NCBI RefSeq assembly: GCF_016820655.1
Contig: NZ_WSFT01000053.1
Coordinates: 310,001 to 374,000 of the forward strand
DNA length: 64,000 nucleotides
Direction of reading: 5' to 3'
From: Anaeromonas frigoriresistens
Lineage (GTDB): Bacteria > Bacillota > Clostridia > Tissierellales > SIT17
In this document: one piece after another, positions 34,631-38,966 of the stretch
Numbering within the stretch: the first letter of the stretch is position 1
How the letters are laid out: each line of letters opens with the position of its first letter
Translations under genes and position numbers: made by a program
Notes under the pieces: generated by a model
What the model was told of the DNA's origin: nothing
Database searches by the model: none
The model's input: only the letters and a program-made list of their open reading frames with translations

Positions 34631-35158
34631 TTAGATAATATTTAAACCTTGTTCATATGCTTTTTCATTAACTTTTTCTGTTCCTGGGGGAACCCTTTTT
34701 AGTATAGCTTCCTTTAATGCTTCTTCAGAAACTATTTTTGTTATTCCATTAATAGCACCTAATGCAACTATATTTGCAACCATAGAAATACCGATATTAT
34801 TTACAGCTTTTTCTATAATAGGCACATGAAATATTTTAACATCAGTTCTTTCTGGTTTCTCTACATCTTTATCTATAATTAGAATACCATTTTTCTTCAA
34901 AGAATCCAAATATTCATCACAAGATTTCTGAGTTAAACTTAATAACACATCACATTTTCTAACCTTTGGATAGTTTATTTCAGTATCGCTTATAATAACC
35001 TCAGCTTTACTAGCTCCACCTCTAGCTTCTGGTCCATATGATTGAGTCTGTATAGAATTTTTACCATCTATCAAAGCTGCTTCAGCCAATATTATTCCTG
35101 CTAAAATTAACCCTTGACCACCTGATCCACTTAATCTAACCTCTGTTTGTCCCTTCAT
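34631..35158 (-). CDS. korC: 2-oxoacid:ferredoxin oxidoreductase, gamma subunit
   Basis: 175 residues. The gamma domain begins EVRLSGSGGQGLILAGIILAEAA and contains TQSYGPEARGGASKAEVI, both typical of the POR/KOR gamma subunit that helps bind CoA. The start at 35158 follows GAGGGGAGATAAT; the frame runs 9 codons further upstream, overlapping korB, without a ribosome site. Last structural gene of korDABC. Confidence 0.94.
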   Translation of the reverse strand: MKGQTEVRLSGSGGQGLILAGIILAEAALIDGKNSIQTQSYGPEARGGASKAEVIISDTEINYPKVRKCDVLLSLTQKSCDEYLDSLKKNGILIIDKDVEKPERTDVKIFHVPIIEKAVNNIGISMVANIVALGAINGITKIVSEEALKEAILKRVPPGTEKVNEKAYEQGLNII

Positions 35159-35159
35159 A

Positions 35160-35981
35160 TTATCTCCCCTCTTGCATTCTATCAATAATTTTTTGATACT
35201 CCTCAGTATACTCTGCCTCTTTATTACTATATAGCTCTCCTATAACAATCTTATTACCTATTTCATCCTTACTTAGCTTATTTGCAGCTTTAATGTTAAT
35301 AGTACCATTTTTTAAATGCTTCATCATTTCTGGAGCATCACCTTTTTTGTTTTTTCTACCATAATATGTTGGACAAATACTTAAAGATTCTATAAGAGAA
35401 AAACCTTTATTCTCTATACCTTTTATGGTCAAATCTTTAATCTGCTTAGCATGATATGCTGTAGACCTTGCAGTATATGTGGCACCAGAAGCCTTTGCTA
35501 ACTCGCATAAATCAAAATTCTTATCTATATTTCCATAAGGTGCAGTAGTTCCTTTTTCTTTTGTAGGAGTTGTTGGTGAATATTGTCCACCTGTCATACC
35601 ATATATATTATTATTAAATACTATTGTAGTTATATCAATATTTCTTCTAGCTGCATGTATAAGATGATTTCCTCCTATAGCAGCACAATCTCCATCCCCT
35701 GTTACCACAATAACGTGTAATTCAGGGTTTGCCATTTTAATTCCTGTAGCAAATGCTAATGCTCTACCATGAGTAGTATGTAGAGTATTGAAGTCCATAT
35801 ATCCTGGAGCTCTAGAGGAACAGCCTATTCCTGATACAATACAAACTTTATCTTTTTCTAATCCAAGTTCATCTATAGCATCGACTACTGCTTTCATAAT
35901 AATCCCATGCCCACATCCAGGACACCATATATGTGGCAATTTATCCATTCTAAAATATCTATCTAACAATTTGCTAGGCAT
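35160..35981 (-). CDS. korB: 2-oxoacid:ferredoxin oxidoreductase, beta (TPP) subunit
   Basis: 273 residues. It binds thiamine pyrophosphate through GDGDCAAIGGNHLIHAARRN (about residue 98) and has HIWCPGCGHG near the N-terminus with the CxxC pair. NNIYGMTGGQYSPTTP is the usual signature of KOR-type beta subunits. It overlaps the end of korA by 19 bp, consistent with coupled translation. Substrate could be 2-oxoglutarate or a branched-chain 2-oxoacid. Confidence 0.95.
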   Translation of the reverse strand: MPSKLLDRYFRMDKLPHIWCPGCGHGIIMKAVVDAIDELGLEKDKVCIVSGIGCSSRAPGYMDFNTLHTTHGRALAFATGIKMANPELHVIVVTGDGDCAAIGGNHLIHAARRNIDITTIVFNNNIYGMTGGQYSPTTPTKEKGTTAPYGNIDKNFDLCELAKASGATYTARSTAYHAKQIKDLTIKGIENKGFSLIESLSICPTYYGRKNKKGDAPEMMKHLKNGTINIKAANKLSKDEIGNKIVIGELYSNKEAEYTEEYQKIIDRMQEGR

Positions 35982-37117
35982 AATACGTCCCCCTTAATTT
36001 TCTCCAATATTTCATCTGGAGTAATTAATTGTCCATTTACTCTACCATATTTAAAGACTTCACAATCCTTATCAGCTGCCCGTTCAACCTCTAACACATA
36101 TTGTCCAAGATTCATTTCTACAACTATAACTTTTTTAACTTTTTTTGTTAGTTCTTTTATTTCCTTCTCTAAGAAAGGCCATATAGTTATAGGTCTAAAT
36201 AGTCCTACTTTTATCCCTTCTTCTTTAGCTAATTCAATAGCACTTTTAGCAGATCTAGCAGTACCACCATAGGCTATTATAGCAACATCAGCATCTTCTA
36301 ACATATACTCTTCATAGTTTGTTATATCATCAATATTATCTTCTATTTTGTTCATAAGTCTATTAATTAGGTTTTCAGCTATGACAGAGTCATTACTTGG
36401 GAAGCCAGTCTCGTCATGCACTAGACCTGTAACATGATACCTATAACCATCTCCAAAAGAAGCCATTTTAGGAACTATATCTCCATCTTTCACTTCATAA
36501 GCTTTATACTCATCAGGATCACATGTAGGCTTAACTCTATCTATAATTTCAATTTCTTCTCTATTTGGTATTTCTATCTTTTCTCTCATATGCCCAATAA
36601 CTTCATCTAACATTAACATAACAGGCATTCTATATTTTTCAGCATAGTTAAAGGCTTTAACAGTCAAATCAAAAGTCTCTTTTACTGATGATGGAGTTAG
36701 AGCAATTACTGGATGATCTCCGTGAGTTCCCCATCTCGCTTGCATAATATCACCTTGTGCTGGAGAAGTTGGTAGTCCTGTACTAGGACCTCCTCTTTGT
36801 ACATTCACTATAACACATGGAATCTCTGTTATTGCTGCATACCCGATATTCTCTTGTTTTAAAGAAAATCCTGGGCCACTAGTAGCGGTCATAGATTTAA
36901 GACCAGCCAATGATCCTCCAATAACTGCCGCCATACCTGCAATTTCATCTTCCATTTGAATGAATTTCCCACCAACTCTTGGTAACTTTAGTGATGAGAT
37001 TTCTGCTATCTCTGTAGATGGAGTTATAGGATAACCTGCATAAAACTTCATACCTGCTGCTAAAGCTCCTTCTACGCATGCTTCATTCCCTTGCATAAGC
37101 TTTATGTTTTTATTCAT
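35963..37117 (-). CDS. korA: 2-oxoacid:ferredoxin oxidoreductase, alpha subunit
   Basis: 384 residues. YPITPSTEIAE (about residue 33), MEDEIAGMAAVIGGSLAG and TSGPGFSLKQENIGYA mark the alpha subunit; the C-terminal half has the transketolase-like domain. The complex oxidatively decarboxylates 2-oxoacids to acyl-CoA and reduces ferredoxin, a central energy step in amino-acid fermenters. I prefer the ATG at 37117 (9 bp after GGAG) over that at 37126, which touches the ribosome site. It overlaps korD. Confidence 0.95.
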   Translation of the reverse strand: MNKNIKLMQGNEACVEGALAAGMKFYAGYPITPSTEIAEISSLKLPRVGGKFIQMEDEIAGMAAVIGGSLAGLKSMTATSGPGFSLKQENIGYAAITEIPCVIVNVQRGGPSTGLPTSPAQGDIMQARWGTHGDHPVIALTPSSVKETFDLTVKAFNYAEKYRMPVMLMLDEVIGHMREKIEIPNREEIEIIDRVKPTCDPDEYKAYEVKDGDIVPKMASFGDGYRYHVTGLVHDETGFPSNDSVIAENLINRLMNKIEDNIDDITNYEEYMLEDADVAIIAYGGTARSAKSAIELAKEEGIKVGLFRPITIWPFLEKEIKELTKKVKKVIVVEMNLGQYVLEVERAADKDCEVFKYGRVNGQLITPDEILEKIKGDVLCLANC

Positions 37118-37322
37118 CCGACTCATCTCCTTCTAAATAAATAGCATAGTCAGGACATCTTAGTTCACAAAGTCCACATTTTATGCATGAATCCAAATCC
37201 TTTATATTTATGATATCGTTTTCCATCTCTAAAACATCCTTGGGACAAAATTCGACACAAATTCCACATCCCTTACACCAGTCTTTATCCACAATCAATT
37301 TCTTGTCTTTTTTTGTGGCCAC
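37110..37322 (-). CDS. korD: 2-oxoacid:ferredoxin oxidoreductase, delta subunit (2[4Fe-4S] ferredoxin)
   Basis: 70 residues with two intact cluster motifs, CKGCGICVEFCP and CIKCGLCELRCP. It transfers electrons from the TPP site to free ferredoxin. It is first in the operon, directly downstream of the promoter with paired direct repeats. A four-subunit DABC order is typical of KOR/VOR-type enzymes. Confidence 0.95.
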   Translation of the reverse strand: MATKKDKKLIVDKDWCKGCGICVEFCPKDVLEMENDIINIKDLDSCIKCGLCELRCPDYAIYLEGDESDE

Positions 37323-38212: not shown

Positions 38213-38282
38213 TTTCTTCCTCCCTAATATAATATCAATTATTCGTAAATAATATAGTACAAATAGATTTTGAGGTGAAATA

Positions 38283-38921
38283 ATGATACAAATAGATGAT
38301 GCAGGTAGTGGTAGTCTAATCGGTGGTACTATTATTGGAGCTATGAGATGTGATACTAAAGAGTACTATTATAAAATTATCCCTTTAGAACTATATAATT
38401 TTGAAAATTTCAAGCAAAAAAAATACCTAGATTACGTAGTTGATATAACAGTGGATCTATTCAATTCCCTTAATGTATCCAAAGAAGAAAAAATATTAGT
38501 TTGTAGAGGATACATGTTTGATAATTTAAGGAAATGGTTAAAAGATAATAATTATAATTTTACAAGCACAAAAATTTATGATCCATTACAAAATATAATT
38601 GAAAAATCTTTTGAAGATTACACTTTATCTTTAGGCTTTCCAAAAGAGATAATAAGTTATACTAAGTATCCATTTCATTTTCATAGAATTTTAAAATGGG
38701 TTTATTCAGACTATGATAAGAGAAAAAAGTTATGTAAAGTAGGATGGAAAAGTTGGCAAAAATATAAAAACCTTAACTTAGAGATAACTTATGAGGAAAT
38801 AAAGAAATCCAATTATCTATGTTTAAAATGCAATAAAGTTATAGATAAAAACAGTAAAGTAAAAATAATCAACTATACTAGTAATCGCCCCGATAGAATA
38901 ATACTACATCACAAATGTTAA
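38283..38921 (+). CDS. Uncharacterised RNase HII-like protein with C-terminal zinc-ribbon-like motif
   Basis: 212 residues. The N-terminus reads IQIDDAGSGSLIGGTIIGA, whose pattern (acidic pair, A-G-x-G, x-L-x-G) resembles the first active-site strand of RNase HII, normally DEAGRGPLAG. The C-terminal 35 residues hold C180-x2-C183 and H209/H210/C212, a likely zinc ribbon. The middle is rich in Lys, Tyr and Trp. AGGTG is the ribosome site 7 bp before the ATG. Single plus-strand gene in a minus-strand region. I do not recognise a named family; an RNase H-fold nucleic-acid enzyme is inference. Confidence 0.75.
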   Translation: MIQIDDAGSGSLIGGTIIGAMRCDTKEYYYKIIPLELYNFENFKQKKYLDYVVDITVDLFNSLNVSKEEKILVCRGYMFDNLRKWLKDNNYNFTSTKIYDPLQNIIEKSFEDYTLSLGFPKEIISYTKYPFHFHRILKWVYSDYDKRKKLCKVGWKSWQKYKNLNLEITYEEIKKSNYLCLKCNKVIDKNSKVKIINYTSNRPDRIILHHKC

Positions 38922-38963
38922 ATATCAGGCTTTAAAACATTAATGTTTTAAAGCCTGATATTT
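38920..38963. terminator. Bidirectional terminator, 44-bp perfect palindrome
   Basis: Perfect dyad 38920-38963 between the convergent RNase H-like and oadA genes, with A/T runs at both ends. Confidence 0.85.
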
Positions 38964-38966
38964 ATT

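Follow-up and report, generated by a model that had tools for sequence, protein, structure and literature searches.

The open frame at positions 38283-38921 on the plus strand encodes a 212-residue protein, beginning MIQIDDAGSGSLIGG, which is the product of a real and strongly conserved gene and is predicted to have an RNase H-like fold. It lies in a window of 64,000 nucleotides, the whole stretch of DNA analysed here (G000:C10:310001-374000, within a 3.2 Mb assembly). In the reading that we prefer, and to which we give an even chance based on predicted models and residue conservation, an N-terminal hairpin of RNase HII type (IDDAGSGSLIGG) would present D5 and D6, which together with C74 at the end of strand 4 and E107 on the helix after strand 5 would form a [D/E]-D-C-E metal site. 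This site would act on structured nucleic acid, and a C-terminal CxxC...HxxC finger would serve as an accessory that helps to hold the substrate. The codons concerned are found at 38295-38300 (D5 and D6), 38502-38504 (C74) and 38601-38603 (E107), and those of the finger (C180, C183, H209 and C212) span 38820-38918, all on the plus strand.

The gene is identified by its open frame, its relatives and its predicted fold. A ribosome-binding site, GAGGTGA, can be read at 38272-38278 on the plus strand, with 4 bases between it and the ATG. In a genome scan from which the best 80 of 82 relatives were kept (46-81% identity), nearly all are from Clostridia, and residues 1-212 are matched in 79 of the 80 loci, the remaining one ending at a contig edge. 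Most of these 79 full-length relatives align with no gap at all, giving a nearly gap-free alignment. Comparison with L020, the nearest named relative (81% identical), shows 33, 13 and 84 differences at the first, second and third codon positions, respectively, which indicates protein-level selection on this frame. Damaged copies were also seen: L093 is frameshifted, and in-frame stops are found in the orthologues L057 (like L093, one of the 79 full-length loci) and L307, whose close relatives are intact, so that these stops represent either recent loss or sequencing error. At the other end of the gene, a 21-bp hairpin runs from the stop codon (38919-38964, common to both strands) with a folding energy of -26.9 kcal/mol, equalled by none of 200 shuffles; it is a likely terminator for both convergent genes and could stop transcription from both directions.

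The family is widespread but patchy. The gene is present in 18 of the 60 nearest genomes, with its own genome counted, and only one of three further congeneric genomes carries it, showing that it is dispensable. It was found in 46 of 291 genomes drawn from the class; in draws from the phylum, a window-type profile matched 25 of 299 genomes, some distantly only, and a distant-branch profile matched 37 of 398.

The first-pass annotation had left the protein without a family, and our searches bear this out: among Pfam, NCBIfam, PHROGs and PADLOC profiles and PDB sequences, none credibly matches the window protein. The RNase HII model PF01351 is not listed for it up to an E-value of 1, nor is it among the 25 families listed, of 46, in a scan of 78 family members, and the integrase core model PF00665 (rve) is likewise not listed for the window protein. 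The scans of the 78 members gave scattered weak matches. The strongest, to the heptose guanosyltransferase model NF049965, involves 2 of 78 members (best E-value 2e-5), and nothing comparable is seen in the window protein; weak matches to CbiK (5 of 78 members, best E-value 0.0046), to Pox_D5 and DUF6487 (both in the window protein) and to APC11 were set aside. YkuK/DUF458-type proteins (PF04308) are also small RNase H-like proteins of spore-formers, but PF04308 is absent from the window protein's matches listed up to an E-value of 1. Among the papers listed by literature searches on the motif string and related phrases, none deals with the 212-residue protein family. A family that is conserved and widespread in Clostridia is unnamed in the searched profile libraries, and this gap in annotation could be closed immediately.

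Structure prediction was performed with AlphaFold for the window protein, using 78 family sequences, and for a 280-residue relative, using 35 sequences from all three branches of the family. The window model (pLDDT 93.1, pTM 0.87) has the elements E2-7, E17-22, E27-32, H47-63, E71-74, H77-88, E93-96 and H102-116, which follow one another as they do in an RNase H core. The second model (pLDDT 93.3, pTM 0.74) represents a different branch, but the two input alignments share members, and neither model contains a metal. A beta-beta-beta-alpha-beta-alpha-beta-alpha core and a fold match to known RNase H-like members are both found in these predicted models. With VIA-align, run on Foldseek's candidates, the window model matches A. 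fulgidus RNase HII (1i39; Z 10.3, 153 residues aligned, rmsd 3.4), 3p83_D (Z 10.2, 160 aligned, rmsd 3.7) and human RNase H2A (3puf_D; Z 9.4, 159 aligned, rmsd 3.8), and in the RNase HII/H2A/HIII rows generally 141-166 residues are aligned, from residue 1 to residue 157-177. For the 280-residue model, 127-145 residues align with RNase HII/H2/HIII, which fill the first 13 of 50 rows (Z 10.4-9.0) ahead of the first integrase (Z 9.0); for the two models together, the Z range for RNase HII/H2/HIII is 8.3-10.4. The RNase H-like fold suggested in the first-pass annotation is therefore what both branches are predicted to have, and over the full length, at about 127-166 residues, the models appear closest to RNase HII/H2/HIII.

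Over a shorter span, retroviral-type integrase cores compete with these enzymes. In Foldseek's ranking, retroviral integrases rather than RNase HII head the list for each of the two models, the top matches being lentiviral integrases (E-values 2.2e-4 for the window model and 4.9e-7 for the 280-residue model), and a viral structure search also returned mainly retroviral integrases. In VIA-align the integrase core of ASV reaches Z 10.5 over 102 residues of the window model, level with A. fulgidus RNase HII. Such cores share with the family the RNase H-like core and a Glu in the helix that follows strand 5. By eye, the spacing C74-x-G-x-x-F79 and Q103-x3-E107 also resembles the D-N-G-x-x-F and Q-x3-E motifs of integrases. 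The protein might on these grounds be a domesticated DDE-type integrase or transposase core with Cys for the second Asp, but we consider this improbable. In the window model only about 96-113 residues align with integrases, versus 141-166 with RNase HII/H2/HIII. When the family was compared using hhalign with 19 rve domains (a usable domain being obtained from 19 of 24 loci), the match had P 0.02, second best of 28 targets, and C74 was not paired with the catalytic Asp. Nor is any integrase or transposase context seen at the loci of the family, the gene occupying a conserved single-gene locus.

The best of those 28 targets, which comprised RNase HII, rve, 24 neighbour families and two reversed alignments, was RNase HII (P 0.0031), with the hairpin in register; the match spans some 17 columns, its absolute strength is low (a probability of 10%), and global hhalign found nothing. 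The hairpin itself, ID[DE]xGxGx[LF]xG with two adjacent acids ending strand 1, is shared with RNase HII. We compared the family with a canonical set of 24 enzymes, taken from 30 RNase HII/HIII loci by omitting six that are near-duplicates or, in one case, an HIII-type protein. All 24 of these enzymes contain the pattern [DE][DE]xGxGx[LFM]xG, as do 77 of the 78 family members, and it is absent from the 889 other ORFs of 100 residues or more taken from the same loci. In the VIA-align pairings, window residue 1 falls on residue 2 of the A. fulgidus enzyme, 3 of T. kodakarensis, 30 of human, 12 of E. coli, 14 of T. maritima and 93 of B. stearothermophilus HIII. If strand 1 is read free of gaps, D5-D6 would stand on the catalytic Asp-Glu pair of all six enzymes, and in the 280-residue model a Glu-Asp pair sits in the same register as D5-D6 of the window protein. 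The first reading of this DNA had noted that the start of the protein mirrors the active-site strand of RNase HII, an observation that these comparisons reinforce.

Beyond the hairpin and the predicted fold, the family and RNase HII part ways. Compared with RNase HII, the family has Asp for the Glu of the acidic pair (and Glu for the Asp in the 280-residue branch), GSG or GGG for GRG, apparently Cys for the third Asp, and an added C-terminal zinc finger. The GRG after the acidic pair is present in 24 of 24 RNase HII sequences versus 0 of 78 family members, and the five signatures GRG, DSK, AAS-I-x-AK, HKGY-type and HR-x-F each occur in 22-24 of the 24 canonical enzymes versus at most one of the 78. 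The genome moreover has its own canonical rnhB (G000:C10:190856-191392), as do 59 of the 60 genomes searched. Because PF01351 misses the protein, the other RNase HII signatures are absent and the genome encodes a standard enzyme, the window protein is not an RNase HII; that it could still be a divergent true RNase HII supplementing the standard one, as the common hairpin and predicted fold might be taken to say, we regard as highly improbable on the same three counts.

The hairpin also bears on a quite different reading, in which the protein would be a nucleotide-binding protein of ASKHA type (actin/sugar-kinase fold) holding a phosphate with its DAGSGS loop. This loop does resemble the phosphate-1 loops of that fold, but the hairpin has the length and glycine pattern of RNase HII, the window model consists of one RNase H-like core, and no actin-like structure appears among the 50 rows of either VIA-align table, although by the tool's own note such an absence is not proof against the fold. 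We give this reading very little credence.

How the putative active site is built was assessed in 116 distinct sequences. The acidic pair at positions 5-6 is Asp-Asp or Glu-Asp in 115 of them, and D6, C74, E107, W139 and K152 are unchanged in all 116. As 38 of the 116 were picked by a pattern demanding the hairpin and C-x-G-x-[IVM]-F, the constancy of D6, G8, G10, C74, G76 and F79 is partly by construction, which applies equally to the family alignment used in the profile comparison; E107, W139 and K152 lie outside this pattern. Six loci that the pattern missed were checked by tblastn (four distinct sequences, one with an internal stop and one cut at the N-terminus), and all six keep C74 and E107, while three have Ser at position 76, so that G76 is not invariant. 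With respect to the acid set of RNase H-like proteins, the strand 1 and helix acids are thus present and the strand 4 position is Cys. At position 100 we see G in 46 sequences, D in 30, E in 22, N in 14 and other residues in the rest, giving no conserved counterpart of the fourth Asp of RNase HII. The equivalence of positions 74 and 100 to the third and fourth RNase HII Asp, and of C74 to the Asp found there in RNase H-fold nucleases, is drawn from topology and order. Of the set of acids whose clustering the first-pass annotation proposed to check, only a part is therefore present: D5-D6 are in register and E107 is constant, but the position expected to hold the next catalytic Asp is a constant Cys.

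The constancy of C74 and E107 would fit an unusual metal site of [D/E]-D-C-E composition, or else a site that is inactive and has been retained for some other purpose. Catalysis may have been lost, because the strand-4 acid is Cys and the fourth RNase HII Asp lacks a conserved counterpart. In that case the protein would be a non-catalytic RNase H-fold protein that has lost the canonical Asp and serves in nucleic-acid or junction binding, or in scaffolding, with the finger as a second contact. The missing third and fourth canonical acids argue for this, as does the behaviour of W139 and K152, which equal the proposed ligands in constancy but play no part in the metal-site scheme; together with Y126-H134, unchanged in the 78-sequence alignment, they look like a binding surface. 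The RNase H-like superfamily is described in a review (PMC3985635) as including variant and incomplete sites, and members with rearranged or incomplete sites are there said to be often inactive. Invariance of D6, C74 and E107 would be unusual for a functionless site, on the other hand, and Cys is able to serve as a metal ligand. We treat the non-catalytic protein as a serious alternative, if a somewhat doubtful one. For the [D/E]-D-C-E metal site that we prefer, whether the altered site catalyses a reaction seems to us about evenly balanced. A more specific proposal is unlikely: that in strict anaerobes the protein cleaves nucleic acid with a site that, through Cys in place of one Asp, is suited to a softer metal (Zn, Fe(II) or Mn), and that it acts at a step of the spore cycle. 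If the protein is active, it would show that cysteine can be accommodated in the active site of an RNase H fold, and spore-formers would have one more nuclease in their repertoire; if inactive, it would be a clear example of this fold being converted to a binding function.

The tail of the window protein reads C180-x2-C183 and H209-H210-x-C212. Family members retain C180, C183, H209 and C212 but vary at H210, so that of the zinc-ribbon tail first described as CxxC...HHxC the four putative ligands stand but the second His does not, nor is the finger universal, one branch being without it. Three architectures are seen. Branch I, the window type, is about 212 residues long with a single CxxC...HxxC finger, and a few of its members carry C-terminal extensions; those of L303 and L306 comprise about 100 residues and are unlike the second finger of the 280-residue branch. 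Branch II, of about 280 residues, has two such fingers, and branch III, of about 175 residues, has none and is represented by four loci in one family of genomes. Since the finger occurs twice in one branch and not at all in another, it is best regarded as accessory. The tail is likely a zinc site, either ribbon or treble clef. Named zinc-finger families matched only below cut-off when the window protein, its tail, two other tails and six branch II/III proteins were searched, and the weak matches to SLX1_C, LIM and L24e suggest the treble-clef type. The likeness to these treble-clef and zinc-ribbon fingers lies in the CxxC-x25-HxxC spacing of the tail, which is that of PARP-type fingers, whereas no family match for the tail exceeds the cut-off.

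The gene had been described as alone on the plus strand, and the same arrangement recurs at most loci of the family. Its neighbours in the window, both on the opposite strand, are surE and an oxaloacetate decarboxylase-type subunit. Among 81 loci, both neighbours are visible in 74, and in 67 of these 74 both lie on the opposite strand; surE is the divergent neighbour in 50 of the 74. These counts point to a single-gene unit at an old chromosomal place. Beyond surE, the minus strand of the window at 34631-37322 holds a four-gene cluster resembling 2-oxoacid:ferredoxin oxidoreductase and an adjoining RpiR-type regulator (names assigned by eye), a stretch that stays beside surE and the 212-residue gene in many loci. 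A different setting is seen in some Thermosediminibacterales/Tepidanaerobacteraceae-like genomes (L061, L079, L083 and L096), where the gene lies beside two peptidase-like genes and near mraW/mraZ-like genes, all named by eye from ORF starts; its place has therefore changed at least once.

That the gene might be a mobile or defence gene was considered and rejected. Two scans found no relatives on viral contigs, none is found in phage records, and PADLOC gave no match for three proteins. The one copy in a plasmid record is damaged: the frameshifted L093 (NZ_CP017270.1, 22620-23120 and flanks) comes from a 24.6-kb record of Geosporobacter ferrireducens called a plasmid, which contains a broken-up copy of the series RpiR, 2-oxoacid oxidoreductase, surE, the 212-residue gene and oxaloacetate decarboxylase. 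An intact chromosomal copy is L058, and the plasmid copy is possibly an assembly artefact.

Most members of the family come from spore-forming anaerobes, and nearly all the genomes that carry it also have spoIVA, although most spore-formers are without the gene. In the class draw spoIVA is present in 43 of 46 genomes with the gene versus 166 of 245 without (291 genomes; Fisher 1.4e-4), and in the phylum draw in 36 of 37 genomes with the family versus 300 of 361 without (398 genomes; Fisher 0.017); phylogeny is ignored in both tests, the pairs of spoIVA and gene were matched by eye, and draws of equal size were taken as the same genomes. We infer from this a link between the protein and the spore-forming life style.

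Finally, the region upstream of the gene was compared between orthologues. A promoter-like element at 38227-38254 on the plus strand, made up of ATA (38227-38229) and AATAATA (38248-38254), is common to orthologue upstreams. The pattern [AC]ATA[AC]TA occurs in 45 of 67 family upstreams, against a mean of 8.1 and a largest value of 15 in 200 shuffles, the 67 being 80 loci minus 14 removed by hand as near-duplicates or damaged, plus the window. With mechanical ORF starts it is found in 42 of 66 upstreams (expected 11.2), and in 13 neighbour families its frequency equals or comes close to the expected value (the highest being 11 of 51, against 7.1 expected). A promoter model trained on the family performs moderately on held-out family upstreams (AUC 0.70). 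The idea that the element is read by a sporulation sigma factor is unsupported by the controls, in which the pattern occurs in 5 of 20 spoIVA upstreams (expected 2.8) and 11 of 24 SASP upstreams (expected 3.5), and by two-block models trained on spoIIID or SASP upstreams, which do not recognise family upstreams (AUC 0.47-0.55). In several genera (for example at L031, L033, L035, L045 and L058), the intergenic region between surE and the gene, which is 38213-38282 in the window, contains two facing -10-like elements by eye, AATAGTAAT ... AAATACTA, a possible overlapping divergent promoter.
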